Source: Sphingopyxis sp. QXT-31
GTDB taxonomy: Bacteria; Pseudomonadota; Alphaproteobacteria; Sphingomonadales; Sphingomonadaceae
Direction: 5' to 3'
Length of the DNA stretch: 64,000 nt
Assembly: GCF_001984035.1 (NCBI RefSeq)
Contig: NZ_CP019449.1
Coordinates: forward strand, 310,001-374,000
The notes under the pieces were generated by a model, which was given only the letters and a program-made list of their open reading frames with translations, was not told the DNA's origin and ran no database searches. Position 1 is the first letter of the stretch. Each line of letters begins with the position of its first letter. A program made the position numbers and the translations under genes. This document shows positions 6,563 through 24,301 of this stretch, one piece after another.

Positions 6563-6639
6563 GCACCCGTAGCTCAGCTGGATAGAGCATCAGACTACGA
6601 ATCTGAGGGTCGGACGTTCGAATCGTTCCGGGTGCGCCA
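6563..6639 (+). tRNA. tRNA-Arg (anticodon ACG)
   Basis: A 77-base cloverleaf with acceptor arms GCACCCG/CGGGTGC, encoded CCA, an anticodon stem TCAGA/TCTGA and loop CTACGAA, giving anticodon ACG, which is normally modified to inosine to read CGN codons. The T-arm is GGACG TTCGAAT CGTTCC. The 3' 46 bases double as the left attachment site of the element that follows, so the tRNA stays intact after integration. Confidence 0.97.
6594..6639. repeat. attL, 46-bp direct repeat in tRNA-Arg
   Basis: The segment from the anticodon loop (ACTACGAATC) to the CCA of tRNA-Arg is repeated without mismatch at 24256-24301. The bases on either side differ, so this is the exact crossover core plus tRNA homology. 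Confidence 0.95.
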
Positions 6640-6648
6640 GCTTTTCCT

Positions 6649-6681
6649 AGGCCTTCCGCATTTCGGTGCGGGAGGCCTTTT
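6649..6681 (+). terminator. Rho-independent terminator after tRNA-Arg
   Basis: Arms AGGCCTTCCGCA and TGCGGGAGGCCT pair over 12 bp with one G-T wobble, loop TTTCGG, followed by TTTT. It lies just inside the element, so the element itself supplies the terminator for the tRNA it interrupts. Confidence 0.8.
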
Positions 6682-6724
6682 GCTGCTAGCAATCACATAG
6701 CAAGCGCGGCGCCCATTTTCAGGC

Positions 6725-6913
6725 TTATGAGACGTTGCGAGCGGCGCGGCACTGATCGAGCTTCGCGGCTATCGCCTTCCATCGCTCCACGCCTGCCATG
6801 TCACCGGCAAGGGCTAACTCCCCGATCCGGGTTGCGATCCACAGTGGCGCGGCCTCGCCGTGCTGGCGCTCGACCAGCAGCGCACAGGCCCACAGTTCCC
6901 GCTCAGGCGTCAC
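6725..6913 (-). CDS. Small conserved phage-type protein (DUF6961-like)
   Basis: A 62-aa soluble helical protein reading MTPERELWACALLVERQHG at its start, with IATRIGELALAGDMAGVERW in the middle. From memory this matches a small family (DUF6961) common in alphaproteobacterial prophages; its function is unknown. The start is a GTG whose bases overlap the stop of the Rap1a-like gene (GTGA, 6913-6910), which implies translational coupling and excludes longer versions. It is the last gene of the ejection operon, next to attL. Confidence 0.7.
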   Translation of the reverse strand: MTPERELWACALLVERQHGEAAPLWIATRIGELALAGDMAGVERWKAIAAKLDQCRAARNVS

Positions 6914-7278
6914 GTGCACTTGAATGAAGCGAGAACGGCTTCCCCGACGAGCAGGGACGCTGACATATGCCGCTTCGCCGGATTGTCCCGAAGGTAGCCC
7001 GCCACGACATCGGTTAGCTGTCCCAGCGTCACGTTCGCGGGCAGGCAAAAGCTTCCCTTGTTGAACGCCGACACCATCAGCAGCGAGTCAGCGGCTCCCG
7101 CGATGTATGCGGTACATCGACCAATTCGAGTGAAATACTCAGCGTCGCGCTCGCTCACGCGGCAATCTTCCCAAAGGTCGTTGCCAGATTTGAAACCCGC
7201 CGCCGAGGCGGGCGCGGGAATGTGCATCGCCCCCGCTGCGAGGATAGCAAGCGCGCCATACCCAAACAGACTTCTCAT
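6910..7278 (-). CDS. Rap1a/Tai-like exported protein
   Basis: A 122-aa protein with a clear signal peptide (residues 1-27, ending PASA-AG) and four cysteines after cleavage, in DLWEDCRV, GRCTAYI, SFCLPANV and the C-terminal FKCT. The pattern, with FCLP...TLGQLTDVVAGYLRDNPAKRH, fits the Rap1a/Tai immunity-protein family, small periplasmic proteins that block type VI amidase effectors. Such proteins are also common in prophages, where their role is unclear. GGGAGG precedes the ATG. It lies 38 bases downstream of the giant ejection gene on the same strand, so it may be co-expressed. A protective role for the cell wall is inference. Confidence 0.75.
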   Translation of the reverse strand: MRSLFGYGALAILAAGAMHIPAPASAAGFKSGNDLWEDCRVSERDAEYFTRIGRCTAYIAGAADSLLMVSAFNKGSFCLPANVTLGQLTDVVAGYLRDNPAKRHMSASLLVGEAVLASFKCT

Positions 7279-7316
7279 ATCCGCCTCCCCCGAGTCACGC
7301 GGGCGAGCATAGACGG

Positions 7317-10300
7317 CTACTCCACCACCTCAAAGCCCGGCGGCGGCGGCGGATCGGAGCGACGACCGGCTGCGCTGCCGCGCTTCTTCTCGGGCTGCGA
7401 GGTTGGCAGCGGCTCACCGCCTAGCACGTTCGAGCGAGCGGCTTTGCGGGCATTGGTCATCACCTTCCCGATGGCGCTCTTTTGATCCTCAATCGACATC
7501 GCGCGATAGTCGGGCTGCTGGATCAATTCCGACACCCACTTATGGGCGAGCGTGCCGCCGACATATTGCAACTGGTTATAGACTGCGGGGCTGAGCTTCT
7601 TGCCCCCCACCGTCTCGTTTGGAGGCGAGATGACTGCGCCGACCCGAATAGCTTCATGCGTCGCCGGATCGCCCTTTTCGGTGCTGGTCCAGATCGGCGA
7701 CATGATGTCAGGCCCGAGACCGCCCTCGCTTACCATCTCCCGCCCCCATGCGTCACGCTTGGGCAGCAGATTGTCGGACAGCCCAGGAATGCGCGACTGG
7801 ATATATTCCAGCGTCCCATCGGTCTCGCGTGCGGTGGGGTCCATTGCGCGGGCGAGCTGGGCGACGCCGGTCGGCACCAGTGCGGAACCGGCGAAGCGAT
7901 CGATAAAGCGCCCGCCGTAGCGTTCGGGATCGCGGAGACCCGCGAGAGCATCGGAGAGGCCAGACAACCACGTCTTGTTTGCAAGGTTGCCCATGATCGC
8001 CGCAACGACCAGCCCCGCCCCCTTGTCCTTCTGCCCGCTCGTCATCCCGTCGCCGAGAGTGACCAAGTCGGCAGCAGTGCCAATCGTCAGCGCGAAGGGA
8101 TCGAGACGGCGATAGCTGTAATACTTGTCGCCGATTTTGATGCTGTAAGGCTCCCAGCCGTCCGCATCGAGCAGGCGACGCTTGTTCTTGTCCCGAGGGG
8201 CCGACCCGGTAATCAGCCCTTGTTCCGCAGCCTCCGCGACCAGCGCGCCGATCCCCGAGCCGATTGCCGCGCGAGCCACGGCAAGGTCTCGCGACGCACC
8301 ACCCGCAGCGAAGTCCTTGCGCCACTCCCGCAGCAGTGGCGCCGCAGGCGAGCGCTCCACCGCAAACTTGAACAGGTTAGTGGGGGTGCGGACGAACGGC
8401 AGAACGACCTTTAGAATCGGTGCAGTTTGGGTGGCTCGCGTCACTAGTGATCCAAGCTCGCCGAGCGGGCGCTGAAAGGTCGCATAGCGCGCATAGTCCA
8501 ACGCCTTCGACCACATCTCATCGGTCGGGTTCGCCACCAGTGCGGCGGCGCGCGCCTTGGCAGCTTCGCCCCGCAACCCTTCGCGCCGTGCAATGCGAAC
8601 AGCCTGCCCCGCCATTTCCGAGCGGCGGGCAATCGCCTTGAACATCTCGTCCTCAATCGTGAGGGCCGAGGTCGGCAGGCGCAATACCTTACCCTTAACC
8701 CCGCTCACCGCGCGTTGGCTGTGCGCCTCGACCTTGGTAGCGAGATCGGCAGGCTCAATGTCGGCGACGGCATTACCCCAGCGCTTCGCGGTATTCCATG
8801 CGCCGGGGGCGTCCCCCTCCTTGGCGGCGAAGCGCGCCGCCAGCTCTTGCACACCCTCTCGGGCACCGGTCATCAACCCGGCTGCGCGGGCGCCGACTTC
8901 GCTAAAGGCGAGACGTTCCGCCGCCCGCTTATTGAAAGCATGGCGAGCGGCGCCGAAGGCCGCAGCGGTCGCATGCTCGGGGATTTGAGCCAGCGTCGTC
9001 ATTGTGTTCGACATGACGTTAACAGCATGGGTCGCCGGGCCGCTAAGGATAAAATTGTACCAAACCTCGACCAGCTTATCTTTCAGCTTGGGCTTGTTGG
9101 CAGCCTCCACAAACTTGTTCAGGCTGGCGGGATCGCGCTCTAGCGTAATGATCATATCAGCGGCCTGGCGAACACGCTTGGTGCCGCCGCCCGCGCCAGC
9201 CAAACCCGCGAGAATGCGGCTCGGTGCGTCCTTGCTGCTCGCCGCCATCCGGAACTGTTGCAGCACGCGCCCAGCTTCCGCAGTCGCGCCGGCCACCTGC
9301 TCCTGAATCGCTACGTGACGGATCATCGCCTTGTGAAAAGCAGCCTCCAATTCATCGCCGGGATTTTCCGTGCGCTGAATTTTTCGAGCGAGTGCCACAA
9401 GCTCGTCGCCGGACTTCGACAGGATCGCGCGGGCGGCGTAGGCTTCTTCTGCGTTGAGCGCCTGCCCCTTGCGGCGGGACAGCAGATCATCGGCGGTCAT
9501 CCCGAGTTGGCGGGCAAGCGCCTTGGTTTCCTCGTTCGAGATCGTGCCGCGGCGAGCAGCGTCGAAGCCTTCCGCCACGTTGTCGGCGATCTTGAGCGCC
9601 TGCGAAATGTCCTGCGCGCTATCGAGCTTATCGACGCGGATATTGCCGACCTTGGAGAGAACCGCATTGTTCCAGTCGTCATAGGCCGTTGCGGGCGGGG
9701 TGTTCGCAATCAGGTCATCAAGCGTTGCAGGGGCGGACGTGTCGGAGTGCAGCGGCGCACCCTCTTGCCGCGCACGCTCGACCGCAAGGCGCTGATCGCG
9801 GGCGCCCTCGTAGGCCTGTATCTGTCCCTCATCCTCGGGCAGGAAGCGCCGACCGACACCCCGATAGGTGTCATCCAGCGCAGCGACAAACTCGGCATTG
9901 GTCGGCGGCGCGTCCAGTTCGGGGAAGTACCCCGCGCGCCATGCGCGTTCGGCGGCTTCGTCCAGTCCGATGCCCTCAGGGTTGACCAGCTTGCCGAGGC
10001 GGTTTTCGCCCCCGGCGAAGTCCTCGCCCTTGCGCGCTGCGTTGCTGATACCGGCAGCGGTTAGCTCGCCGCCGTCATCGCGAACGCCGTTCAGCGAGCG
10101 CATGAAGGTCACAAGGTCGGTCGGACCTTTGCGGGTTATCGTGGTCTCGGGATTGGCGCGCGAGGGAAATTGCGAGGTTTCCAGATAGTCGCGTTCGCGG
10201 GGAGGCTTCACCGGATCGAGACCGCCCCGAGCCAGCGCGGCAGCTTCCGCTTCTGTTAGTTCATTGGACGGACGCGGCAGCACGTCCCCCGGCTCCACGC

Positions 10301-12164
10301 GGGCGGTTGCGGCGCGCATCATCGCATCGGTCGGACCCTCGCCCATAGGACGGGTGCGAGTGGCGTTGACGTCGATTACATCGCGCTCGCGGGGGCCAGT
10401 GATCGAAGGCAGCGGCTCGCCACCCATATCTGCTCGCGCGCCGGGGGCGCCGCGCGCTGCTTCGTCCGCCGCCTCAAAGGCTCGTTGCATCTGAGCTTCG
10501 CTGATTTCTGCCGCGTCGTCACCGACCTGCGTCCGCAGCGATTCCTCGAAAGCCGCAACCCGCTGACCGTCCTGCGCCATTTCCGCCGAGGTCTCACTAC
10601 CGCGGAGGCGCAAGGATCGAGCAAAGCGCCCGGTCGCCCGCTTGACTAGATCGAAACCCTTGCCGAGAACGGCGCCGCCGCCAGCCCCCATCGCTGCATT
10701 CAAGGGGACGTTGGCGACACGCTGCATAAAAGTGCCGTCGCCGGACCCGAAACCATAGACGCCGCCGTATGCGCCACCGACCTTGGCGAAGCCAGCAGCG
10801 CCGCGCACACCAGCACCGACCGGCAAGGCAACTCCCGAGGTCAACTGACCGCCGAAGCGCATCCACGGGTGGTTTGTCTCGTCGTAGTCAATGATCGCGC
10901 GATTCTGGCGAACGTTGTTGTCGTAGATCTCGCCGAACGAGCGGTCGCTATTCCAGATGTTTTCGCGGTACTCGGTGCCGCCAATGGCATCGACCACACC
11001 CCCCATTTCGTCGAGGAAGCCGATAGGGTCACCGAAGCCGCGAGCAAAAGCGCCCGTCTTACCGTCGCCGGGGTTGATGATGGGAAGCGGAATAGGCGCA
11101 TCCGTGCCCGCAGCCTTGGCGGCAAAGAAGGCGTCAACGTCGCGGGGATCGAAGGTCATGCCGTTCACGTCGGCGAACTGCTTTAGCGTCTCCGGCGTGC
11201 TGCCAGGCGCCGCGAGCAAGGCGCCATAGGCTTCCTGAACCTCAGGCCGCATGCCGGCGAAAGCGTTTTGCTTTTTGAAGTCCGCGAGGGTCGCGGCGTC
11301 CCAAGACGAATAGTCGATCATGCCGAACTTTTCGCCCTTGCGGATCGCCTCGATAAACTCAGGATCGGCGACCGAGGCCGCTTTGCCTTTCGACTTCCAA
11401 TAGGCGTCAAGGTCGGCTTGGCTAAACGTCTGATCGCCCGACTTGCTGGCTAGGAAGCCATAATAGGCCTGCTCTTCCTCAGTCGGGAGGCGCTGAAACT
11501 CGGGGCGCAATTCCGGCAGATCGGCAGTCCATGCCAATTCCTCATCGGCACGCAGCTTGATCGGGCCGCGCTCAGCCATGCGCTGCACCTTGGGGGAAAG
11601 ATGCTGCGTCCCGTGACCGCCTTGCAGATTGAGGCGTGCGAGGCGTTCCGCTTCCGTATAGATTGCGCTGCGCTCAGGGTCGGCCTTAAGATATTCGGGC
11701 GCGGCATAGCCATGACCCTCGCGAAGCATCGGAACAATCGGGTCGGCGCCGCTGTTGTCGAGCGTCACGACCGGGCGCCCAAAGGTCTTTGCGCCGATAC
11801 CGCGGACGCTGGTTTGCGGCGTCACGAGACCGTCAAGGGCGCTGGTTGCAAGTTGCCCCAGCGGGACGAGGCTACCGTCAGGGGAAACCCCCGGCTGGTC
11901 GGCCTCGAATGCGTCGAAACCCTGAACCCGGCCATTGCGCTTATCGCCGAGGCGGATCGTATCGCCGTCAACCACATCGCCGGTTGCTTCCAGAGTAAAG
12001 CCAGCGGGGAGCGGCGAAACCTTGCGCTCGTCGGTTTCCCCCGGCGGTTGCGTGCCGAGGTCCACAATATCGCCAGCGGGCGTGTAGTCAGGCAAGCGCA
12101 GCGGCTTACTCTTGCGGGGGCGCTCGACTTCAAAACCGGGAGGAAGCGGGGGCAGACCTGCCAT
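7317..12164 (-). CDS. Giant virion ejection/polyvalent protein with SNase-like domain
   Basis: A 1615-aa protein resembling the largest internal virion (ejection) protein of podoviruses, a class that is injected with the genome. Residues 62-165 form a staphylococcal-nuclease-like domain: GDVVDGDTIRL, then R79 and E87 at the canonical 8-residue spacing, and R130 in KTFGR. A glycine/alanine-rich, membrane-active-looking segment spans about 435-520. A helical half follows with SGPATHAVNVMSN near 1040, ALTIEDEMFKAIARRSEM, and LPFVRTPTNLFKFAVERSP. These signatures recall large phage polyvalent proteins (LPD38-like C-terminus, from memory). Both termini carry a PPGFEV motif. I chose ATG 12164, 9 bases after GGAG and just past the upstream stop. 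The frame is intact over 4.8 kb. Confidence 0.8.
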   Translation of the reverse strand: MAGLPPLPPGFEVERPRKSKPLRLPDYTPAGDIVDLGTQPPGETDERKVSPLPAGFTLEATGDVVDGDTIRLGDKRNGRVQGFDAFEADQPGVSPDGSLVPLGQLATSALDGLVTPQTSVRGIGAKTFGRPVVTLDNSGADPIVPMLREGHGYAAPEYLKADPERSAIYTEAERLARLNLQGGHGTQHLSPKVQRMAERGPIKLRADEELAWTADLPELRPEFQRLPTEEEQAYYGFLASKSGDQTFSQADLDAYWKSKGKAASVADPEFIEAIRKGEKFGMIDYSSWDAATLADFKKQNAFAGMRPEVQEAYGALLAAPGSTPETLKQFADVNGMTFDPRDVDAFFAAKAAGTDAPIPLPIINPGDGKTGAFARGFGDPIGFLDEMGGVVDAIGGTEYRENIWNSDRSFGEIYDNNVRQNRAIIDYDETNHPWMRFGGQLTSGVALPVGAGVRGAAGFAKVGGAYGGVYGFGSGDGTFMQRVANVPLNAAMGAGGGAVLGKGFDLVKRATGRFARSLRLRGSETSAEMAQDGQRVAAFEESLRTQVGDDAAEISEAQMQRAFEAADEAARGAPGARADMGGEPLPSITGPRERDVIDVNATRTRPMGEGPTDAMMRAATARVEPGDVLPRPSNELTEAEAAALARGGLDPVKPPRERDYLETSQFPSRANPETTITRKGPTDLVTFMRSLNGVRDDGGELTAAGISNAARKGEDFAGGENRLGKLVNPEGIGLDEAAERAWRAGYFPELDAPPTNAEFVAALDDTYRGVGRRFLPEDEGQIQAYEGARDQRLAVERARQEGAPLHSDTSAPATLDDLIANTPPATAYDDWNNAVLSKVGNIRVDKLDSAQDISQALKIADNVAEGFDAARRGTISNEETKALARQLGMTADDLLSRRKGQALNAEEAYAARAILSKSGDELVALARKIQRTENPGDELEAAFHKAMIRHVAIQEQVAGATAEAGRVLQQFRMAASSKDAPSRILAGLAGAGGGTKRVRQAADMIITLERDPASLNKFVEAANKPKLKDKLVEVWYNFILSGPATHAVNVMSNTMTTLAQIPEHATAAAFGAARHAFNKRAAERLAFSEVGARAAGLMTGAREGVQELAARFAAKEGDAPGAWNTAKRWGNAVADIEPADLATKVEAHSQRAVSGVKGKVLRLPTSALTIEDEMFKAIARRSEMAGQAVRIARREGLRGEAAKARAAALVANPTDEMWSKALDYARYATFQRPLGELGSLVTRATQTAPILKVVLPFVRTPTNLFKFAVERSPAAPLLREWRKDFAAGGASRDLAVARAAIGSGIGALVAEAAEQGLITGSAPRDKNKRRLLDADGWEPYSIKIGDKYYSYRRLDPFALTIGTAADLVTLGDGMTSGQKDKGAGLVVAAIMGNLANKTWLSGLSDALAGLRDPERYGGRFIDRFAGSALVPTGVAQLARAMDPTARETDGTLEYIQSRIPGLSDNLLPKRDAWGREMVSEGGLGPDIMSPIWTSTEKGDPATHEAIRVGAVISPPNETVGGKKLSPAVYNQLQYVGGTLAHKWVSELIQQPDYRAMSIEDQKSAIGKVMTNARKAARSNVLGGEPLPTSQPEKKRGSAAGRRSDPPPPPGFEVVE

Positions 12165-12165
12165 G

Positions 12166-12615
12166 TTAGGCATCTCCAATAGGCTGCAGGACTTGGGCCC
12201 AAAAAGTGCGGGCTTCTTTCGTGATGGCGTGAGCATACGGCTCGGACGCGTCGGACATTTCGCGCAGCCTGTTCTCCATCGCATCGAATTGCTCGGGCGG
12301 GGCGCGGTCGGCGGCTACATCGAACAGGGCCATAGCGTCCGCCTGAAAGCCGGGACGGCGTGGGCCGAGAATTGTCGGCGCCACCATTTCCGAGAGTGCC
12401 GCCGAGAGATGCGCCGCTAAATTGATGGCAGCAAAATCACCATGCGCGGCCGCCAATCGTGCAAAGCAGAGCGCGTACAGGTGAACCAGCAAGTCAAAGC
12501 CGACGTCCTCGCCGTCAGCGATCCCCATAAGGTCAAGCGCGATTGCTAACTGGCTCTTGCCGCACCCATGAGCGGCAGCGTGCAGCATCGCGGCAGGGGA
12601 GGTGTCGCGGCTCAC
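12166..12615 (-). CDS. Hypothetical protein in ejection operon
   Basis: A 149-aa predicted soluble, mainly helical protein of unknown function. It lies between the ribbon-helix-helix gene and the giant ejection gene. The GTG start overlaps the upstream stop (GTGA at 12615-12612) and its own stop abuts the next start, so expression is tied to its neighbours. No signal peptide, membrane helix or catalytic motif is visible. It is rich in alanine, with HAAAHGCGKSQLAIALDL near the N-terminus; this contains GCGKS but lacks a full Walker A context, so I do not call an ATPase. Confidence 0.75.
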   Translation of the reverse strand: MSRDTSPAAMLHAAAHGCGKSQLAIALDLMGIADGEDVGFDLLVHLYALCFARLAAAHGDFAAINLAAHLSAALSEMVAPTILGPRRPGFQADAMALFDVAADRAPPEQFDAMENRLREMSDASEPYAHAITKEARTFWAQVLQPIGDA

Positions 12616-12782
12616 CCCTCGGCCAGTACTTTGTCGCGCACTGCGGCGCGGTACAATTCGGGGAGGCTCATACCGAGCGATCGGGCGCGAGCCTTAGCCG
12701 CTTCGACCAGCACGCTATTAGCCCGAAAGCTAATCGCCGTGTCGTGAACCACATTGCTGACTTTCTCTTTTTCGCCGGTCAT
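12612..12782 (-). CDS. Small ribbon-helix-helix-like protein
   Basis: A 56-aa protein with the N-terminal strand TAISFRANSVLVEAAKARA and then RARSLGMSLPELYRAAVRDK. This is the strand-helix-turn-helix pattern of Arc/CopG-type DNA-binding proteins, in which the ISFR strand would contact DNA as a dimer. Its ATG overlaps the upstream stop by one base (TGATG) and its own stop overlaps the next start (GTGA). It could regulate the ejection operon or be packaged as part of it. The family call is by pattern only. Confidence 0.7.
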   Translation of the reverse strand: MTGEKEKVSNVVHDTAISFRANSVLVEAAKARARSLGMSLPELYRAAVRDKVLAEG

Positions 12783-12955
12783 CAGTTCAACCTTTCTCGC
12801 TTGGCGGGGGCTGGCATTTCGCCGAGGGTGATGTCGGCGGGAACGTAAAACGCTGGTTCGCCCTTGGCTTGTCGGCGCTCAACAAGGCGGCGCTCTTGGC
12901 TCTGGCGCAGGGCCTCGCCAAAGGGGCTCGCGGCAATGGCGGCGAAGATGCCCAT
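12782..12955 (-). CDS. Small hypothetical protein in ejection operon
   Basis: A 57-aa protein beginning MGIFAAIAASPFGEALRQSQ, with a short hydrophobic N-terminus, a charged helical middle (QERRLVERRQ) and YVPADITLGEMPAPAKRE at the end. I chose the ATG that overlaps the stop of the 308-aa gene (TAATG); an alternative ATG lies 15 bases upstream. Function unknown. The position between ejection-type genes suggests a structural or assembly role. Confidence 0.65.
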   Translation of the reverse strand: MGIFAAIAASPFGEALRQSQERRLVERRQAKGEPAFYVPADITLGEMPAPAKRERLN

Positions 12956-13881
12956 TAGAACTTCACCCATTTGCCGTTGCGCAGGATGACCCGCTGGCCG
13001 GTCTTGGGGTTGACCGCAGTGGGCGCGTTCATGTCGCCAACGGTGACCTTTTCAACCGGCTTGCCCAGCGCCTTGCCGCGCCTTGCAATCTGCCTCCGAG
13101 CCTTAGCGAGCTGAACCCCGCCCTTTGCCACAGACAGCGCGTTCTTTGCTTCCTGCCAAGCCGAGTTGCTTTCCGCCACGTCAGCGTCGGCGACCTGCTC
13201 GCGGGCTCGCCCCCCATAATAATCGGGCGCGGTCTCGGCCTCTGCCTCGGCGGTGTCCGCCTTCGCCCGCTGTTCGCGCGCACGGTCTGGCTGGACCTCC
13301 CTGTCGCGGGTCTCGTCAAAGACAGCGTTCCACATTTCGGCGGTGTTCTTTGCGCCGACGCCAGCCGCGAGGCGATGCGTCAGGATGCCGACAATCTGCG
13401 CGCGTTCTTCGGGCGTCCCGGCTTCAAGAATGCGGAGAACTTCGCGGTCGTTCTCGTCGCCTTGTCCCGCCTCAATATCCGCATCGACCATTTTGGCAGC
13501 GGTGCGGGCAGCCAAGTCCCAACGGCCATTGCGCGCCGCGCCGATGGTTTCCGCGATGAGCGAATTGCTGCGGTCGGCGTCGCGCTCGGCAGCGTTCTTG
13601 TATAGCGGTTCAAGCGCCTGATGATGCTCCGGGAAGCGCAGCGCGATCTCGCGGTAGCCCTCATAGGTGGGGTTGGTGCCTAGGGATTTGACAGCTTCAA
13701 GGTAGGATTGTTCCCGCTCGCGTGCCGCCATGAACTTTGCTGACGCAATCTGCTGCTCGCCTCGCACCCCTGCGATTTGCGCTCGGGTCAGGTCCGACAG
13801 AAGCTGTTGCTGAACCTGCGCGGCATAGTCCGGCACAAGCGACATGCCCGCTCGGATAATTTCAGCATCGTTATAAGTCAT
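12955..13881 (-). CDS. Phage internal virion/ejection-type protein
   Basis: A 308-aa, strongly helical, charged protein starting MTYNDAEIIRAGMSLVPDYA. Coiled-coil-like stretches occur at about 30-60 (LTRAQIAGVRGEQQIASAKF) and 200-270 (EQRAKADTAEAEAET, then AKARRQIARRGKALG). The C-terminus PTAVNPKTGQRVILRNGKWVKF resembles a small basic tail found in phage structural proteins. Gene order (small gp7-like protein, this one, then the giant protein) parallels the three-protein ejection sets of P22 and T7. I infer a middle ejection protein; sequence alone does not prove it. Confidence 0.65.
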   Translation of the reverse strand: MTYNDAEIIRAGMSLVPDYAAQVQQQLLSDLTRAQIAGVRGEQQIASAKFMAAREREQSYLEAVKSLGTNPTYEGYREIALRFPEHHQALEPLYKNAAERDADRSNSLIAETIGAARNGRWDLAARTAAKMVDADIEAGQGDENDREVLRILEAGTPEERAQIVGILTHRLAAGVGAKNTAEMWNAVFDETRDREVQPDRAREQRAKADTAEAEAETAPDYYGGRAREQVADADVAESNSAWQEAKNALSVAKGGVQLAKARRQIARRGKALGKPVEKVTVGDMNAPTAVNPKTGQRVILRNGKWVKF

Positions 13882-13889
13882 AGCAAACC

Positions 13890-15069: not shown

Positions 15070-15105
15070 AATTGAGCTTGTCGCGGAGGATCGCGGGCGC
15101 GTCAA

Positions 15106-16096: not shown

Positions 16097-16099
16097 CAC

Positions 16100-16162
16100 T
16101 GTTACACCGTATGACATTTAGGGGATTGACGCAATGGTTAACGTCTGTCACACCATGTAACA
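16100..16162. promoter_or_regulatory. Paired 17-bp operator
   Basis: TGTTACACCGTATGACA (16100-16116) and, inverted, TGTTACATGGTGTGACA (16162-16146) match at 14 of 17 positions, and each is itself an imperfect palindrome. They lie 46 bp apart, centre to centre, between the divergent repressor and early operons; a TTGACG hexamer at 16126 lies between them. This is the expected arrangement for repressor control. Confidence 0.7.
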
Positions 16163-16251
16163 GCCAAGGCCAGAAGCCAAGGCGGACCGAGGCAGGGCGG
16201 CAACCCTAACCCCGGTCCTATCGCAAACCCTGATCTAGAGGGATTACGACT

Positions 16252-16653: not shown

Positions 16654-16982
16654 GCGCCGCCGCCGCGAAACCGCACACCGCTTTCAGCATTCACGCCGTC
16701 GCGTACAAGATCGCAAGGCAGGCTTTCGAGCAGCACCGCGCAATCTGCCTTCCCGACGACGACGCGCCGCTTATGCACGACTACGAAAGCGCGTGCGCCC
16801 CGCTGATCGAAGCGCTCTTGAACACGGCAAGGAAGGCAATCCAGACCCCCGCCGCGTCGGTCGGCGAGGTATGGCAGAAGCTGACCATTTTCGCCGCCGA
16901 GGACATGCAAGACCTTGTGGATGCGAAAGACGTCATCGCCCACATCACCGCCGACGCGCTGCGGCTGGCAGGTGCGGAATGA
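16650..16982 (+). CDS. Hypothetical early protein 2
   Basis: A 110-aa helical protein (MSAAAAKPHTAFSIHAVAYK, then ARQAFEQHRAICLPDDDAPL). The GTG start overlaps the preceding stop and the gene ends in an ATGA overlap with the next. Unknown function. It shares the first codons GTGAGCGCCGCC with three other gene starts in the element. Confidence 0.7.
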   Translation: MSAAAAKPHTAFSIHAVAYKIARQAFEQHRAICLPDDDAPLMHDYESACAPLIEALLNTARKAIQTPAASVGEVWQKLTIFAAEDMQDLVDAKDVIAHITADALRLAGAE

Positions 16983-17335
16983 GCGCCGCCGTTGTGAAGC
17001 TGCCCACGGCAGCGCCGCGCAAGGTGAAGAATTGCACCCATGTCCCTTCGCGATGGGCTGCCATCAAATTGCGGGAGGGGCAGGCGGTCAAGTTCGAGAA
17101 GCGCCCGCCGTCGATCCGCGAGGCCGAGCAGGTCGCCGAGGCTATCAGCCCCATGACGCCCGAGCGTTGGCTCTTGCTGGCAATGCTCCACGCCATGCCC
17201 GCCGACCAATTCGAGCGGCTGGCTGCGTTCGGGGCGCATGGTCATCCCGCGATCCGGGGATTGATGAAACTCGCCAAGGGTAACGCGGGTCTCAATCTGG
17301 ACGTGATGAACGCGCTCGAAAGGCTCGGCAAGTGA
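16979..17335 (+). CDS. Hypothetical early protein 3
   Basis: A 118-aa protein starting MSAAVVKLPTAAPRKVKNC. The basic N-terminus is followed by helices (SIREAEQVAEAISPMTPERW, LLLAMLHAMPADQFERLAAF). No recognised domain. The ATG overlaps the previous stop (ATGA), and the stop overlaps the next GTG start. A nucleic-acid-binding role would fit the basic stretch but is not shown. Confidence 0.7.
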   Translation: MSAAVVKLPTAAPRKVKNCTHVPSRWAAIKLREGQAVKFEKRPPSIREAEQVAEAISPMTPERWLLLAMLHAMPADQFERLAAFGAHGHPAIRGLMKLAKGNAGLNLDVMNALERLGK

Positions 17336-17451
17336 GGGCGCGGCGGCAGGGGGACACCACCCCCATGACGCTCGCAATGATCGTGACGGCGTTGGGAGTG
17401 TCGTGGTTTACCGCCCAGTTGGTAGACCTCGCATTCGCGGTCCTGAAATGA
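17332..17451 (+). CDS. 39-aa membrane peptide
   Basis: A small protein, MRARRQGDTTPMTLAMIVTA and so on, with one membrane helix (about residues 13-37) after a basic head, consistent with a cytoplasm-in orientation. Its GTG overlaps the preceding stop and its TGA overlaps the next ATG, so it sits exactly in the coupled series. That tight fit is the main evidence that it is real. Confidence 0.55.
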   Translation: MRARRQGDTTPMTLAMIVTALGVSWFTAQLVDLAFAVLK

Positions 17452-17864
17452 GCGCCGCGAGCAAGAAAGGAGGGCAGCGCCTTTGGGCGCTGTTCACCGC
17501 CACGCCGCTCCTGTCCGATACCGAGCAATGGTCTGCGCTAGTCGAGGGGCGCAACATGCTCCCGGCAGAGCAGCGCCAGCCGAGGGAGCCGGAGAAGCCG
17601 AAGGGGCCGGGGTGGGACACCGACAACCCGCCGCCGCGTCATTGCGCCTTCGCGCAGCGCGGTCACGATCATCTGACGGTTTACTTCATCTTCGCGAATT
17701 GCACAGCGGCGCAGGCCGCAAGGCTTCGCAAGGCGATGCAGGAAGGCGCGGACACGTCCGATTGGGAATGGCCGCTGACACACGCGCCCAAGATCATTCA
17801 GCGCCTTAGCTGGAACGAGCGGCAAGAGGCGTGGCGCCTGTTTGGCGAAGGGGGCCAGCCGTGA
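17448..17864 (+). CDS. Hypothetical early protein 5
   Basis: A 138-aa protein (MSAASKKGGQRLWALFTATP). It has a proline-rich middle (REPEKPKGPGWDTDNPPP) and an aromatic-rich second half (HDHLTVYFIFANCT, DWEWPLTHAPKI). Unknown function. ATGA overlap at the start, GTGA overlap at the end. Confidence 0.7.
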   Translation: MSAASKKGGQRLWALFTATPLLSDTEQWSALVEGRNMLPAEQRQPREPEKPKGPGWDTDNPPPRHCAFAQRGHDHLTVYFIFANCTAAQAARLRKAMQEGADTSDWEWPLTHAPKIIQRLSWNERQEAWRLFGEGGQP

Positions 17865-18247
17865 GCGCCCGCATGGTCGTCTATGTCGGTCGGGGGCAAT
17901 CGCTCCCGGCAGATATAGCCCTTTCGCTTATCCCGTCGCTGCCGCGTCCCGCGCTCGAAAGGCTTGTGCAGCGCCTTATCGACGGGCTGGACGATATGGA
18001 CGCGCCCGCCGAGGATATGGAGGATGACGACCCCGCAGGCATGATGGACGAGGACGAGCTAACCACCGGGCCCGGTGTCTTTGTCGAGCATGGCACTTTC
18101 TATCGTGGTAGCGGCTGCCCGATCGCTGACCCCGGCGAATTGGGATGCACCGACTTGCCTATGGTGACCCATGACGGCGAGGATCAAACCGTCGTCGTCC
18201 TGCCCGCGCCGAGAGAGATCGAGCCTTACCGGTTTCGCGTGAGCTGA
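17861..18247 (+). CDS. Hypothetical early protein 6
   Basis: A 128-aa acidic protein (MSARMVVYVGRGQSLPADIA). A DDMDAPAEDMEDDDPAG segment near residue 48 is extremely acidic, which is seen in DNA mimics and in chaperone-type linkers but is not diagnostic. The second half has PGVFVEHGTFYRGSGCPIAD. It is the last gene before a strong terminator. The GTG start lies in the overlap with the previous stop. Confidence 0.7.
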   Translation: MSARMVVYVGRGQSLPADIALSLIPSLPRPALERLVQRLIDGLDDMDAPAEDMEDDDPAGMMDEDELTTGPGVFVEHGTFYRGSGCPIADPGELGCTDLPMVTHDGEDQTVVVLPAPREIEPYRFRVS

Positions 18248-18271
18248 TCCAACCGGCGCCAGTTACTTTGA

Positions 18272-18301
18272 AGGCGGGGGTTTCGGCCCCCGCCTTTTTT
18301 T
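18272..18301 (+). terminator. Rho-independent terminator of early operon
   Basis: GGCGGGGG and CCCCCGCC form a perfect 8-bp stem with loop TTTCGG, followed by seven T. It ends the operon that starts at 16252. Confidence 0.9.
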
Positions 18302-18342
18302 GTAACCTACGCCCCGGAGTGACGTCCGAGGGGATAGGTCAG

Positions 18343-19119
18343 GTGCTTCGCGGGTATTTCGACGACAGCGGGACGCATGGAGACTCTGAGATTGTTGTTT
18401 GGGCTGGCGTGATCGGCACCGAGAGCGCTTTTTCAAAGTTGGATAATGCGTGGCGCAAAATGCTGGCCGAGCCGCTGCCGGGGAAGCCTGCGCTACGGAA
18501 ATTCAGCTTGGGTGATTGCAGATCGGCCCAAGGCGAATTCAAAGACTACCGCCCTGTAGAGCGAGACGCGCTCCGGTATGAGGTCCGGCAGATAATCGCC
18601 GCCGCGGACCTTCACAGCATTGCCTACTGCATCCCGATAGCGACATATGACCGCATAATCCGCGGGCGGGTGCGAAAGGCGTACGGGCCGCCAGACGGCG
18701 TGGCGTTCGCGTCCTGCGCAGACTATGCACTCCAAGTCGCCGAGACACTCCGAGGCTCCCCTATCGCGTGCATATTTGATCAGGGCCAAGAGCGCCCTTG
18801 GCTCACTGCATTTCTGCGCGCAGCCGAGGAAAGGGCAAGTGCCAAAGGTATTACAACATCATACTCATTCGGTGCGGTTATAGATCATTGCGGGCTACAG
18901 GCAGCCGATACCATCGCGACAGAGCACTACTGGCAATACAAGAGGAATGCTGGCGCCGATGTGCCCGTGAGCGATCCTCACTTTGACAGCCTGCTGAGGC
19001 ACAACAAGCCAGCGGGCTGGATTTTACACGAAGCGGATTTGCAGAGATTGCGGCGTGACTATCTGAGGGAGCGTCCGTTGCGAGACTACCTGAAAACGGC
19101 AAAAAAGAGGTACGATTAA
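18343..19119 (+). CDS. DUF3800 protein
   Basis: A 258-aa protein with the DUF3800 signature: an N-terminal RGYFDDSGTHGDSE with paired acidic residues and a C-terminal DHCGLQAADTIATEHYW. The family is thought to have an RNase H-like fold and is frequent in mobile elements and next to defence genes; its substrate is unknown. The GTG start follows GAGGGG. The longer frame would begin inside the preceding terminator and is rejected. GC content is lower than in neighbouring genes, and it stands alone between a terminator and the probable origin. I read it as cargo. Confidence 0.8.
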   Translation: MLRGYFDDSGTHGDSEIVVWAGVIGTESAFSKLDNAWRKMLAEPLPGKPALRKFSLGDCRSAQGEFKDYRPVERDALRYEVRQIIAAADLHSIAYCIPIATYDRIIRGRVRKAYGPPDGVAFASCADYALQVAETLRGSPIACIFDQGQERPWLTAFLRAAEERASAKGITTSYSFGAVIDHCGLQAADTIATEHYWQYKRNAGADVPVSDPHFDSLLRHNKPAGWILHEADLQRLRRDYLRERPLRDYLKTAKKRYD

Positions 19120-19752: not shown

Positions 19753-20997
19753 CTAGACTTCGGATGGATCGACCGCGTTGCCGACGACCACGAACGGGCG
19801 GTCATTGCCCTTGTTGTCAACGCGACGCTCGACCGCGAGCGCACCCGAGGCGAACCACGTCCGCAAGATTGCCTTGATCCGTCCCTTGTCCCGCTCAGCC
19901 GACAGGCAGGCCACTTCGGCGAGCGCATGGCCCACCCAATCTTTCGCCTGCACGCTCTCGCGATACTCCCCTGCCTTCACCCGCTGCTGCACCTCGTACA
20001 GATCGGCGGCGGTCAGGCCGTGGAATATGTCCGGCTTCTCCCACGGCGTCGCCACACCGACATAATCGGACGGCTCGCCATCCACGCCATTGCCGAGGCT
20101 CTGGCTTTCCAGCTTAATCCACGTCGCCGCGTCGGGCGGGGCCCGGTTGGCCTTGCCCATGTCGATCCGAACCAGCGACCGACGCAGTTGCGGGTCGGTA
20201 ATGCCCAATTCGTCTGCCTCCCGGTCTGACATGGGATTGATCGGAAGCACGACGCGGGCGGCATCGCGAAGCGCCACAGCCCCGCGCCCGTCCTCTGCCG
20301 TGACTTCGCGACCGCCGAGCTTCTTGGTATGGTGGACCAGCACGACCGCGCAGCCAGTGCTTTTGGCAAGGCGCTTCCATCGCTTCGTGATCGCGTCAAT
20401 CGCTCCGTTGTCGCTTTCCTGCGCTTGGTGGCTCGACACGAACGGGTCAACGGTGACCACCGCGATAGAGCGCGCCCGAATCGTCGCCTCAAGCTGCTGA
20501 AAGACGTCCTCAGCGAGGGCGAAACCGTCGCGATCCTCTGTTGCTGTGCAAAGGGGCTGGTCTAGCCCGCTATCGACCAGCAGGCGCCCCGCGCACTCGT
20601 CGGGACCGATGCCGTAGAACAGCGCCGCCGCCGAGATTTGCCGGTCAAGTTCCTCTTGCCCGTCCTCTAGGTTGTAGATCCACGCGGCTTGCGCTCCCCG
20701 AGGCAGAGCCTTCCCCAGCAGGGGGCGACCGGACGCGAGCGACAGGGCAATGGCGTTGCCGATCGTGCTCTTGCCCGTCCCCCCTGGCGCAATCACAACA
20801 GTGACCTCGCCGCGCAGCAGCCAATGGCCCATGAGCCAAGGGCGCGTCGGGATTTTCGACGGATCGGGCCAGCTATAAGGCGTGGCATTCAGCGGGCGTA
20901 GCGGTACGGTCGGTTTGCTGCCGACCACCCCCATACCGGGCATGAAATGCGGGCCGTCTATTTCGTCGGCAAGACTACGCGGCGGCGACATTAGCAT
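19753..20997 (-). CDS. RepA-type AAA/RecA-fold helicase
   Basis: A 414-aa replicative helicase of the plasmid/phage RepA class (AAA_25-like). Walker A is APGGTGKSTIGNAIAL near residue 70. The Walker B-like strand is SIAVVTVDPFVSSH, and the sensor-like VVLVHHTKK follows. The first 50 residues are a linker and the last 80 a helical tail. It would unwind DNA when the element replicates. The gene overlaps the upstream primase-like gene by 23 bases, and an ATG two codons in (20991) is an alternative start. It lies immediately beside the repeat-rich region. Confidence 0.85.
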   Translation of the reverse strand: MLMSPPRSLADEIDGPHFMPGMGVVGSKPTVPLRPLNATPYSWPDPSKIPTRPWLMGHWLLRGEVTVVIAPGGTGKSTIGNAIALSLASGRPLLGKALPRGAQAAWIYNLEDGQEELDRQISAAALFYGIGPDECAGRLLVDSGLDQPLCTATEDRDGFALAEDVFQQLEATIRARSIAVVTVDPFVSSHQAQESDNGAIDAITKRWKRLAKSTGCAVVLVHHTKKLGGREVTAEDGRGAVALRDAARVVLPINPMSDREADELGITDPQLRRSLVRIDMGKANRAPPDAATWIKLESQSLGNGVDGEPSDYVGVATPWEKPDIFHGLTAADLYEVQQRVKAGEYRESVQAKDWVGHALAEVACLSAERDKGRIKAILRTWFASGALAVERRVDNKGNDRPFVVVGNAVDPSEV

Positions 20998-21541
20998 TTC
21001 CCATCTCTACGGTTATCGGCGGCACGCGCCGGGGCTGCGACAAGCGTCTTCGCAGTCGGGCGGCAAGCATTGTCGTGTCGCAGAGGATTTCGTTCTGATC
21101 GCGCAGCGCGGCGACCTCGCAATCGGGCAGACCCCAATCAAGAATGCAGCAGGCTTGCCCCTCAGCGGCGATCCAAGCGAGCGGCGTTCCCACCACCAGC
21201 AGCTTGTCACCAGGCCAGACGCTACGCTCCATCACATCAGCCCCGAGGATCGACCCGCACCCCACCCGCCACCACCAGCGCGCAGGCTGAGACGAGCGAA
21301 AGGCAACAATGTCGATCAGCTCGCCGCGCTCGATCACCGGCACGACGAGCGCGGGCCTGCCTTCGGGATCGGGCCACCAGCGCCCAGCGTCGTCCGTGTC
21401 GATGCGCTCGACCCCGAACGGCATCTGACGCGACCCTAGCCCCGCCAAAGCGTCTGCGGACACTCCCAGCGCCAACAGGTGGTCGATGTGCGCCTGTCGC
21501 ACGTTCGACAGCGCGCGGCTGCAATCATCCAGCAGGGACAC
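20975..21541 (-). CDS. Primase-like (TOPRIM-type) protein
   Basis: A 188-aa protein encoded upstream of the helicase. It reads HIDHLLALGVSADALAGLGS, then ALVVPVIERGELIDIVAFRS and DKLLVVGTPLAWIAAEGQAC, an order that recalls the DnaG/TOPRIM helicase-partner proteins of satellites and phages. The usual EGxxD motif is degenerate (LVVGTPLAWIAAEG), so catalytic activity is doubtful. I chose the GTG at 21541, which overlaps the previous gene's end by 17 bases; the longer frame has an arginine/proline-rich, non-conserved look. Confidence 0.6.
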   Translation of the reverse strand: MSLLDDCSRALSNVRQAHIDHLLALGVSADALAGLGSRQMPFGVERIDTDDAGRWWPDPEGRPALVVPVIERGELIDIVAFRSSQPARWWWRVGCGSILGADVMERSVWPGDKLLVVGTPLAWIAAEGQACCILDWGLPDCEVAALRDQNEILCDTTMLAARLRRRLSQPRRVPPITVEMGNANVAAA

Positions 21542-21728
21542 GGGCGCCCCCTTTGGTTTCGTCGATGACGGGCAGCGACAGCAGCTTGGAGACCGTATCC
21601 GCAGCGGTGCAGGCCGAGAGATACCCGACATGGGTTTCCGCCACCAGCGGGCGGGGTGGGCCCGCGTCAGGAGGTAAGACCCTGACGCGGTACAGCACCC
21701 CGTCGCGGCTGAGATGGACCGCGGGCAT
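21525..21728 (-). CDS. Small hypothetical protein in replication operon
   Basis: A 67-aa protein (MPAVHLSRDGVLYRVRVLPP) of unknown function. ATG 21728 follows the upstream stop by one base (TGAAATG), so it is translationally coupled. The pattern YRVRVLPPDAGPPRPLVAET suggests a compact beta fold. Confidence 0.6.
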   Translation of the reverse strand: MPAVHLSRDGVLYRVRVLPPDAGPPRPLVAETHVGYLSACTAADTVSKLLSLPVIDETKGGARVPAG

Positions 21729-21729
21729 T

Positions 21730-22301: not shown

Positions 22302-22522
22302 GTCCGATGTTCCCGCTGCAACCGGGGATCGCGGCGAGGATAAGCCAGCCGCTTCCAAGTCGTGCGGGCGCCGCGCCAGCCGCATGACAGACGTTGCACT
22401 TCCGCGAAGGAGAGGCTATTCGACGGGAACCCAATGCCTGTCAGCTTGAGGGTTTCGAGCCGTCCCGCGCCAACGGGGCGGCTCATTCGTTTATGGGGCC
22501 GACGCCCTTTCGGATGCGGCAC
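22298..22522 (-). CDS. Small basic hypothetical protein
   Basis: A 74-aa strongly basic protein ending YPRRDPRLQREHRT, with a central TGIGFPSNSLSFAEVQRLSC. It starts at a GTG three bases after the HTH gene stop, or at an internal ATG (22486). It may bind nucleic acid. The GTGA overlap with the following gene supports the reading frame. Confidence 0.5.
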   Translation of the reverse strand: MPHPKGRRPHKRMSRPVGAGRLETLKLTGIGFPSNSLSFAEVQRLSCGWRGARTTWKRLAYPRRDPRLQREHRT

Positions 22523-22525
22523 GGG

Positions 22526-22723
22526 TCAAGCCGCCTCGCTCGTCGAGGTGCGGGCACCGGCAGCGGCCCAAGCGTCCAGATCGGCGCGGGCATACACGAC
22601 CCGGCGCGTTCCAAGGCGGCTCCACGTAGGCCCATCGCCGCGCACTCGCATATGGTTTAGGGTTGAGACGCCCATGCGCAGATATTGCGCCGCCTCTTCG
22701 GTGTTGAGATAATTCGGTTGCAT
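22526..22723 (-). CDS. Excisionase/AlpA-like HTH protein
   Basis: A 65-aa protein with MQPNYLNTEEAAQYLRMGVS, then HMRVRGDGPTWSRLGTRRVV and YARADLDAWA: the winged MerR-like fold of excisionases and AlpA regulators. It is transcribed in the same direction as, and downstream of, the integrase end of the element and heads the replication operon, as in P4- and PICI-type satellites. It probably controls excision or activates the operon. ATG 22723 was chosen; a longer frame starts 33 bases upstream. Confidence 0.8.
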   Translation of the reverse strand: MQPNYLNTEEAAQYLRMGVSTLNHMRVRGDGPTWSRLGTRRVVYARADLDAWAAAGARTSTSEAA

Positions 22724-22879
22724 GAAAGTCGGTCTCCGCTCGCCAGCAAGAGACAATCACTTGCGGCGACGGCATACCAACTAAGGCACGTTGCGGCCAA
22801 AGTCGCATCCACAAATTACCAGGCCGTTTATAGGGTTAAGCTACTGATCTTGCATGATAATCTGAGATAGTAGCAATGG

Positions 22880-24118
22880 CTACTTTGCGGCGCTGATCGG
22901 CACTACATTGTCACCAACGGCAAGCAGGCCCGCCACATGCCCGCCCCATGTCGCCAGCGCTTCCCGCTTTTCGTCGGCGAAGGCGTACCGCTGATAAGTG
23001 CCAGCCACCCCGGCCTTGCGACGATTCTGGATAGCCTCGATCCAGTCGGACGGGATGCGCAGCCGTTGCAGGCCTGTTGCAACCGAGCGCCGCAGATCGT
23101 GGAAGCGCCAAGGCAGCACGGGCGCCGCGTCATCCTCGATAAGGTCGGCAATCTCACCGTCTAGCTTGCGCTTCGCCTTGGAATAGCCCGAGACGTGCGA
23201 CTTGCCGCCGTCAGTGGTCAGGACGTAACCCTTGCGAGGCCAAGCCTCACCGCCCGCCAGCGCGTCCAATTCAGCGACCGCTTGCGGCGACAGGGGAACA
23301 AGATGCTCCCTGTTGTTTTTCGCCCTGGCACTCGGCAGCAGCCATTCGCCGCGGTCGCGGTCAAGTTCCTGCCATTCGAGCGCGGCAACCTCGTCCCGGC
23401 GCTGCCCGGTGAGCAGCAGCAGGCGAACCAGCGCGCAGAAGGCGCGGGGCAGCTCGTCGCTCGCGATCCATACTAGGCGCAGTTCATTGTCGGAAAGCAC
23501 GCGGTCACGACTGGCGACCGGCTTAGGCGCTTCGACACCCTCTAGCGGGTTGCGGTCAATCTCACCCCGGCCTTGCGACCAGCGGAACAGGCGATGTGCG
23601 ACGGCGTAGACATTGCGGCGCATGGCAGGCCCGCCCTTGAGGTCATCGAGCAGCGCGACAATCTCTTGCCCCGTGATCGACGGCAGCGCCCGCTTGCCCA
23701 GCTTGGGACGCAGATGCAGCCGGAGCGCATCCTTGACGAACCCGCCCGACTTTACCCACCGCTTAGGCACTTCCAATGTCTCGAACCGATCCGCGACCGC
23801 ATCAAAGGTTAGGTCCGTAGCTTCGCGGACACGCTGGCGCTTATCGTCGGCGGGGTTTTTGCCTTGGCTTACCAGCATCAATAGGCGCTTTGCCTCGGCC
23901 TCAGCAGCGGCAGGCGTCCAAGCGCCATGCGAGCCGATAGTATAGCGCCGAGTCGTGGCGCCCCTGCCACCCATGCGATATTGCAGCAGATAGACCCGCT
24001 TGCCCGCCGGGGTGATCTTGACCCCGAAGCCGCGCGTGTCGGTGTCCCATAGGAAGGCGTCCCGATCCCCGGCTTGCATCGCATCCACAGAGCGCTTCGT
24101 GATCTTTCCTTGTGCCAT
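22880..24118 (-). CDS. Tyrosine recombinase (site-specific integrase)
   Basis: A 412-aa integrase of the P4/DUF4102 type. The N-terminal arm-binding domain has KITKRSVDAMQAGDRDAFLW and GFGVKITPAGKRVYLLQYRM. The catalytic domain has box I arginine in LTGQRRDEVAALEW, the HDLRRSVATGL box and the terminal GTYQRYAF with the nucleophilic tyrosine. It starts 138 bases inside attR, the usual place for enzymes that target tRNA genes. ATG 24118 is chosen; the longer frame runs into the attachment flank. It should catalyse integration at tRNA-Arg. Confidence 0.93.
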   Translation of the reverse strand: MAQGKITKRSVDAMQAGDRDAFLWDTDTRGFGVKITPAGKRVYLLQYRMGGRGATTRRYTIGSHGAWTPAAAEAEAKRLLMLVSQGKNPADDKRQRVREATDLTFDAVADRFETLEVPKRWVKSGGFVKDALRLHLRPKLGKRALPSITGQEIVALLDDLKGGPAMRRNVYAVAHRLFRWSQGRGEIDRNPLEGVEAPKPVASRDRVLSDNELRLVWIASDELPRAFCALVRLLLLTGQRRDEVAALEWQELDRDRGEWLLPSARAKNNREHLVPLSPQAVAELDALAGGEAWPRKGYVLTTDGGKSHVSGYSKAKRKLDGEIADLIEDDAAPVLPWRFHDLRRSVATGLQRLRIPSDWIEAIQNRRKAGVAGTYQRYAFADEKREALATWGGHVAGLLAVGDNVVPISAAK

Positions 24119-24255
24119 TCGCAAGCACATAGCAATCACGCGAGCGGCAAGCAACGACAACGTAGGGCAACCCGCAATATGATGGGGCGCGGAATTGCGA
24201 GGTTTAAGGGTGACAGGAACAATCGGCGGCAACTCGCGACAACGCAGACCACAAA

Positions 24256-24301
24256 ACTACGAATCTGAGGGTCGGACGTTCGAATCGTTCCGGGTGCGCC
24301 A
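24256..24301. repeat. attR, 46-bp direct repeat
   Basis: Perfect copy of 6594-6639, from the tRNA-Arg anticodon loop to CCA. It lacks the 5' half of the tRNA and is therefore only an attachment remnant. Confidence 0.95.

Follow-up and report, generated by a model that had tools for sequence, protein, structure and literature searches.

The DNA analysed here, referred to below as the window, is a stretch of 64,000 nucleotides from Sphingopyxis sp. QXT-31 (contig NZ_CP019449.1, positions 310001-374000 within a 4.29-Mb single-contig genome). It contains an element of 17,708 bp, enclosed at 6594-24301 by identical 46-bp direct repeats, the left (6594-6639) and right (24256-24301) copies of the attachment site (att). 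The left copy is the 3' end of a tRNA-Arg(acg) gene, predicted with ARAGORN and Rfam tRNA at 6563-6639 on the plus strand. The empty site, i.e. the two flanks joined, was matched without interruption at 86-89 % in three of 80 genomes of the genus, the host's own genome being among the 80 (G345, G326 and G335; handles with G, L and C stand for our genomes or contigs, loci and protein clusters). The repeats, the tRNA-Arg 3' end and the uninterrupted empty sites together establish 6594-24301 as an inserted element. An earlier note, made from the letters of this DNA, had suggested a satellite that keeps its own podovirus-type ejection proteins and has no head genes, and the att repeats that it proposed proved to be exact.

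On the minus strand the element carries a module whose genes overlap or stand a few bases apart; the genes called in the window are open. The 232-aa product of 13890-14588 is a homologue of P22 gp7, since it matched the PHROG family 'DNA ejection' (phrog_598, E 7e-27) and, under the cut-off, Pfam P22_gp7 (PF25688, E 3.4e-5), and over residues 37-192 it shares 63 % identity with the gp7 of Sphingopyxis phage VSN-002. The adjoining gene (12955-13881) encodes a 308-aa protein of cluster C2, which gave no family match in Pfam or PHROG and no match in phage records. Twelve homologues besides the protein itself were obtained when 8000 candidates were scored, and patterns of the family found no relative in genome contigs and viral contigs. 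A 13-row profile of the family matched the gene directly after gp7 in the P22-like sphingomonad prophages G257, G251 and G225 and the gp20 gene of the VSN-002-like provirus G352 (E 2e-13 to 1e-22 for the four), and because of these matches the 308-aa protein is assigned as a gp20-type ejection protein. The provirus G352:C1 (L073, L074) resides in a Sphingopyxis chromosome and its tested proteins are 100 % identical to those of VSN-002.

The third protein, a giant of 1615 aa (7317-12164, minus strand, family C0), consists of an SNase-like N-terminus and a T7-type core resembling internal virion protein D. Its residues 1025-1467 matched the PHROG 'internal virion protein' phrog_6651 (E 3.8e-40), and matches to internal virion proteins of T7-like phages were found in 61 phage records (internal virion protein D of Desulfovibrio phage ProddE, E 1e-35). 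It did not match the third protein of VSN-002 itself, the core being T7-type. Seven sphingomonad plasmids encode 'thermonuclease family' proteins that match residues 49-199, with E values as low as 2e-11. Pfam SNase was matched in three of the six giant-family members scanned (G062, E 2e-8; G088, 3e-5; G058, 0.003, below the cut-off) and not in those of the window, G315 or G433. By eye, an M15 peptidase-like stretch was seen in nine of 17 aligned giant proteins, at the start in two and at the end in seven (sub-threshold in Pfam, E 0.012 and 0.042), and was not seen in that of the window. A search of PDB sequences with the giant-family profile returned only two designed proteins at E 0.5. The gp7-type, gp20-type and large internal-virion-type proteins of a P22/T7-type module are all present in the window, as the earlier note had proposed. 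Matches to non-virion families would have told against that proposal; apart from the nuclease-like N-terminus of the giant protein, the three proteins match ejection or internal virion proteins of phages.

The last 600 residues of the giant protein were used to look for relatives. Matches were obtained in 22 of 397 sampled Sphingomonadaceae genomes, from 15 of 96 genera, and in seven of 80 genomes of the genus, the own genome being counted in both surveys. The seven include a T7-like prophage (G302), and among the 22, G157 and G258 are short broken pieces with internal stops. A scan of named genomes gave at least 27 loci, four weak ones elsewhere and 23 strong ones (L269-L291), the latter in Sphingopyxis, Sphingobium, Sphingomonas, Novosphingobium, Tsuneonella, Erythrobacter, Qipengyuania, Altererythrobacter and their kin, including some metagenome-assembled genomes named only to a higher rank. 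In viral contigs, patterns of the giant protein made from the window alone found nothing, and those made from a 17-row alignment found 150 sequences, of which 80 were kept.

For the comparison of anatomy 24 regions were taken, including the window and leaving out G302, G157, G258 and second, partial matches in G088 and G315. The giant frame is open over at least 1490 aa in 21 of them and over 1430, 1330 and 885 aa in G452, G160 and G329. In ten regions, exact repeats of 19-63 bp at tRNA genes mark both ends (two each at Arg, Lys and Gln, one each at Tyr, Asn, Thr and Glu); nine of these elements are 17.5-26.6 kb long and the tenth, at the same tRNA-Arg as the window element, is the 6.0-kb remnant G329. 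Exact repeats of at least 17 nt at a tRNA were not found for the other 14 regions, some of which end at contig ends. The usual gene order is integrase, AlpA, small genes, replication genes, a rightward operon, a helix-turn-helix (HTH) gene, a variable slot and the ejection module, from which G404 and G274 deviate; the replication genes of the relatives encode either AAA_25 or DUF3987 with a CHC2/toprim primase. Next to the giant gene, 21 of the 24 regions have a gene of C2 or C6, the latter being a cluster of proteins like those encoded at the gp20 position of the contigs G466 and G467 described below; of 14 further named loci, 13 have such a gene there. Gp7-type genes were recognised with PHROG in the window, G006, G331 and L286 and with BLAST in G404 and L278, and another ejection family was matched in L271.

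Some relatives carry more of a virion. Tail fibre or spike genes matching PHROG tail families lie near the giant gene in G282 (E 2e-13), G433 (1e-20) and G452 (2e-9), and weaker matches to structural proteins stand beside the module in G249, G160 and G058. Just 3' of the giant gene, DUF5681-type proteins are encoded in G062, G249, G006 and G160 (E 4e-4 to 2e-6, only G160 being above the cut-off).

The same module was found together with head genes in two IMG/VR contigs, G466 (30.9 kb, with an integrase) and G467 (23.2 kb). Their PHROG matches comprise the terminase large subunit (TerL; E 4e-91 and 7e-57 in G466 and G467, respectively), portal (2e-45 and 2e-7) and major head protein (9e-60 and 1e-13). 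In both, gp10 is followed by an acetyltransferase gene and the gp7-type, gp20-position and giant genes, and the headless element of G006 has these last four in identical order. The common order in phages with heads identifies the module as a genuine virion module. G466 further shares C4-, C27- and primase-like genes with the elements, and directly upstream of its TerL gene, the usual place of the small terminase, it encodes a clear DUF5681 protein (E 4e-9). A phage of the G466/G467 type could be a donor or helper of the elements. A separate observation concerns NZ_CP132331.1 (L307), filed as a plasmid of Bordetella bronchiseptica. With an integrase as well as terminase, portal, major capsid, holin and lysozyme genes it resembles the genome of a podophage, and the giant-protein core is matched at 38 % by its proteins at 17080-19091.

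In 6594-24301, neither 62 reference proteins nor, for 13 ORFs (open reading frames) of the window, hidden Markov model (HMM) scans revealed a gene for head, packaging or lysis, in agreement with the terminase, portal, capsid and lysis genes reported missing earlier. The same 62 proteins, which come from six phages, gave only ejection-type, acetyltransferase and integrase matches in tblastn against the 24 regions, the exception being 36 residues of a VSN-002 protein matching the spike gene of G282. The head proteins of G466 and G467 had no match in the 23 named loci, with up to 10 kb of flank on each side; as a positive control, gp10 of G466 found six of six P22-like prophage loci. Of the 24 genomes, 21 have a PF03237 terminase, never within an element, the nearest on the same contig being about 54 kb away (G203), a survey limited by fragmented assemblies.

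When 125 ORFs of the ten att-bounded elements were scanned with HMMs, no head family was among the first 25 families listed for each library, out of 94 for PHROG and 39 for Pfam; the set was made of 129 ORFs of 80-1000 aa, from which four straddling fetched pieces were left out. The tail-fibre-like protein of G433 matched PHROGs labelled head decoration and virion structural protein. The ten elements (6.0-26.6 kb) have 33 called ORFs of at least 350 aa, and 31 of them received a non-head assignment by BLAST cluster or HMM, as giant, gp20-cluster, integrase/recombinase, replication, insertion-sequence or tail-spike-like genes. The remaining two, of 523 aa in G221 (463 aa scanned, weak nucleotidyltransferase match) and of 414 aa in G057 (no significant match), do not recur among the ten. 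Head genes hidden in the elements were therefore rejected on the TerL survey, the HMM scans and the reference-protein searches. P4-type Sid, Psu and Delta were absent from the families listed in the HMM scans, no search having been aimed at that set, and the backbone gene C7 had no match in 50,697 phage records. Relatives bounded by att and containing full head genes, which would have made the window element a deletion, were not encountered: none of the 24 element regions has recognisable head genes.

The distribution of headless elements was followed in trees of the giant protein, from which eight of the 23 named loci were dropped beforehand as duplicates of regions with G handles. In a 130-row tree of the core, the smallest group holding all 39 headless elements has 41 members (support 0.997), the other two being G466 and G467. 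In a 61-row tree, which includes 12 IMG/VR rows and comes from an IQ-TREE quick search with no mixture model and with long branches, the window lies within a group of 25 headless elements (Shimodaira-Hasegawa-like approximate likelihood ratio test, SH-aLRT, 99), and these 25 together with three headless elements and G466 form a group of 29 (SH-aLRT 96). Other pairings in this tree are headless G274 with G467, headless G375 with phage L306 (on a long branch), and an IMG/VR contig with headless L284. Five changes of the headless label are needed, four of them forced by well-supported branches, versus 18 for shuffled labels. These trees suggest a few origins of headlessness, or transfers of the module, followed by a long headless radiation.

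The ratio of non-synonymous to synonymous substitution rates (dN/dS) of the giant gene is 0.09-0.24 in ten pairs of headless elements, some of which share a member, with dS of 0.7-2.1, near saturation; that of the neighbouring C2/C6 gene is 0.16-0.66 in the seven pairs available. The low values for the giant gene imply that selection keeps this protein working despite no head gene being left, and, since the window is also one of a group of 25 headless elements, its element is not a private deletion. Open frames and substitution pattern both speak against a decayed prophage, as the earlier note had judged from intact, coupled frames. The observation is confirmed at the level of sequence: the window element belongs to a widespread lineage of integrative elements that have no recognisable head genes and in which selection maintains the ejection module of a podovirus.

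The module of the window contains further small genes, all on the minus strand. Two belong to cluster C1: 12166-12615, which recurs beside the module in relatives and has no Pfam match, and 12612-12782 (56 aa), which recurs at the module start. The latter resembles a ribbon-helix-helix protein by eye only, and its reading as such a regulator was dropped as it had no Pfam support. A 62-aa ORF (12782-12970) overlaps the adjoining genes. A Rap1a-family protein (6910-7278; PF18602, E 6.1e-19) with a signal-peptide-like start, judged by eye, is encoded directly 3' of the giant gene; it had been described before as Rap1a/Tai-like, of which the Rap1a part is confirmed and the Tai part is unsupported, the Tai paper making no mention of Rap1a. 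Three elements have a Rap1a-family protein in this position, namely those of the window, G057 (E 1e-17) and G329 (E 1e-6); the two loci outside the window are L161:18668-19024 and L107:5854-6213. The small ORF 6725-7048 (family C27, 64 aa if started at 6919) has homologues in G315, G224, G057 and the headed phage G466. The ORFs were called with a purpose-made gene caller, which sometimes places starts late.

The backbone genes lie between the module and the right att copy. The tyrosine integrase (22880-24232, minus; PF00589, E 1.4e-13), relatives of which were found at E 1e-60 or below in 27 of 80 genomes of the genus, the own included, is accompanied by an AlpA/Xis-type HTH protein (22526-22756, minus; PF12728, E 1.5e-9; phrog_66) and an AAA_25 helicase-type replication protein (19753-20997, minus; PF13481, E 3.8e-38) with relatives in 31 of 296 family genomes, again counting the own. 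These three assignments agree with the earlier ones of integrase, AlpA/Xis-like protein and helicase. Close relatives of the AAA_25 protein (48-76 % identity) are found at the sphingomonad regions L052-L060, with no giant gene in the 10-20 kb read there, and this replication backbone appears common to more than one island type. The 218-aa ORF at 20975-21631 (minus), with homologues in G315, G437 and G249, is taken as replication-associated by position; the label 'primase-like' given to it before found no Pfam or PHROG match to back it.

A repressor with a paired operator had also been postulated. The operator-like part is present as a paired 18-nt inverted repeat (16099-16116 and 16146-16163) at the start of the HTH gene and ahead of the divergent operon; the repressor-like protein (15878-16117, minus, cluster C5), which has homologues in relatives, matched HTH_31 at E 1.2e-4, below the Pfam cut-off. 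The rightward operon of small genes (16252-18247, plus; C13, C16, C4 and others) recurs in relatives, and a C4-like gene is one of those shared with G466. It is followed by a gene for a 283-aa protein (18268-19119, plus), probably cargo, with no family match; a DUF3800 reading of this protein had no Pfam support and was abandoned. Among the ORFs of att-bounded elements, PADLOC matched HEC-09 (E 3e-43), DrmD (1e-32) and PDC-M04A (3e-32), which suggests that relatives carry defence cargo; other PADLOC matches, such as a DnaG-like one, are probably replication genes. SRAP-type (SOS-associated peptidase) genes recur as cargo as well (L155:18141-18752 and L160:10300-10881); Pfam SRAP was matched by two of the 125 scanned ORFs, and cluster C17 has four members.

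The window element has its own integrase and att sites, genes for regulation and replication and an incomplete set of virion genes, which are the marks of a phage satellite; the capsid and terminase of its own that define a capsid-forming phage-inducible chromosomal island (cf-PICI) were not found in it. The reading preferred here, with a probability of about 0.7, is that of an integrative phage satellite which would borrow podovirus particles and supply its own ejection apparatus. This is the satellite conceived in the earlier note, and it is supported by headless relatives that keep the module under selection; mobilisation by a helper and use of the ejection proteins in particles are inferred. 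We lean, by a narrower measure, towards a wider proposal as well, in which an old Sphingomonadaceae satellite lineage takes podovirus heads and tail and replaces the injection machine, in several members also the receptor-binding spike, the stolen particle then delivering, by the satellite's own rules, satellite DNA and an injected nuclease-bearing giant protein.

Several points weigh against this reading. Gp7-type partners were recognised in only six relatives, and the window element has no DUF5681 protein, spike or peptidase-like domain of the kinds found in some relatives. 'Headless' means that the references and HMMs used gave no match. The 39 headless elements are not one clade: a single clade was marginally rejected (approximately unbiased test, p 0.041) and a few separate transitions were retained instead. 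No helper came to light; the host genome has two TerL loci and no second gp7 homologue. Finally, the element was analysed as sequence, and its excision, packaging and transfer are inferred.

Three other explanations were weighed against the satellite. The element might be what is left of a temperate podovirus of the G466 type after loss of the genes for head, packaging and lysis, now decaying in place. G466, in which head genes accompany the same module order and the C4-, C27- and primase-like genes, would be a fitting ancestor, G329 with its truncated giant gene looks like a 6-kb shrunken version at the same tRNA-Arg, and G157 and G258 are indeed broken pieces with stops. Decay is, however, spoken against by a giant frame of at least 1490 aa in 21 of 24 regions, the dN/dS of 0.09-0.24 in ten headless pairs, a group of 25 that is wholly headless, and the use of several tRNA sites and integrases, so that this explanation is considered improbable. 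An old origin by loss of head genes from a podovirus is likely; recent decay of the whole lineage is not, and recent prophage decay was rejected on the headless group of 25 and purifying selection. That the elements are autonomous minimal phages with unrecognised head genes would suit the many ORFs without an assigned function, but so few large ORFs are left over in the ten att-bounded elements (two of 33, neither recurrent) that we give this very little credence.

It is also conceivable, although unlikely, that the element is a defence island in which mismatched ejection proteins and Rap1a poison podovirus progeny or block entry, its own transfer being secondary or lost. Satellites are known to interfere with their helpers, and both the position of Rap1a immediately 3' of the giant gene, shared by three elements, and the PADLOC-type matches in some relatives are in keeping with such a role. 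The integrase, AlpA, replication genes, empty site and att at many tRNAs speak instead for continuing transfer, and a giant protein with nuclease- and envelope-type domains would suit delivery better than poisoning.

A satellite of the preferred kind could work as follows. Infection by, or induction of, a podovirus would lead to excision and replication of the satellite and to its packaging in helper heads, into which the gp7-, gp20- and giant-type proteins of the satellite would be loaded with, or instead of, the helper's set. At adsorption these proteins would be ejected first and form a channel across the envelope, through which the satellite DNA may be brought in together with the nuclease-like domain. 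In relatives, the tail fibre or spike may change the receptor and so let the satellite choose among receptors, and the DUF5681 proteins are candidates for a packaging redirector, as suggested by the position of the DUF5681 gene of G466 ahead of TerL. Rap1a, as a putative periplasmic protein, is a candidate guard that may block further ejection complexes in the carrier cell.

If the wider proposal is true, a virion would be split between two genomes at the interface of head and ejection proteins. A widespread lineage that contributes nothing but the injected proteins, in some members together with a spike, would mean that phages and their parasites compete over entry itself, and it would become testable which virion parts decide the host reached and whether ejection proteins can be interchanged between genomes. 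In addition, the elements yield a large natural alignment of ejection proteins of podovirus type that occur apart from their heads.

In the partial texts available, described satellites steal or supply heads, tails or packaging factors. The open-access literature, as far as its texts were covered, held no satellite with ejection or internal virion proteins, which is weak evidence as subscription journals and preprints are mostly outside it; no open-access paper paired 'satellite' with 'internal virion protein' plus other terms, and in the covered parts of a phage-satellite paper and a molecular-piracy review 'ejection protein' occurred in the reference lists only. The elements resemble PICIs, P4-like satellites and PICMI in being small and integrative, with integrase, AlpA, primase/helicase, cargo slots and an incomplete virion set, but those satellites redirect capsids or packaging, and the portions of their descriptions at hand contained no ejection proteins. 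The Pseudomonas satellite AH14b is similar in its 16.8 kb, integrase, AlpA, toprim primase, helicase-like gene and lack of head genes or a structural set; it differs in having a lambda tail-assembly-I homologue, and the words 'injection' and 'transglycosylase' are absent from the available part of its paper (PMC4936722). Polyvalent proteins are likewise very large, multidomain and delivered with phage or plasmid DNA, while 'SNase' and 'internal virion' do not appear in the main text of the paper on them, as far as it was available (PMC5512222).

Sphingopyxis phage VSN-002 shares gp7 with the elements, and G466 and G467 share the whole acetyltransferase-gp7-gp20-giant module, but these phages differ from the elements in possessing terminase, portal and coat genes. 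Kapi1 belongs to the P22-like podoviruses. According to the part of its paper available, the satellite EcCIMP1 uses Kapi1 as temperate helper and so offers a similar case of a satellite read as mobilised by a podovirus, although 'ejection' and 'injection' are absent from that text (PMC11773190). The closest parallel in the division of labour is offered by the cf-PICIs and the Streptomyces satellites MulchRoom and MiniFlayer, which likewise supply part of the virion and take the rest from a helper: in the text available, cf-PICIs bring their own heads and packaging but need the tails of a helper, and MiniFlayer encodes a head and a tail fibre (PMC10690885). Whereas these satellites bring head and terminase, the lineage of the window would bring the ejection set, sometimes with a fibre or spike, in a reverse division that would make it the mirror image of the capsid-forming PICIs.

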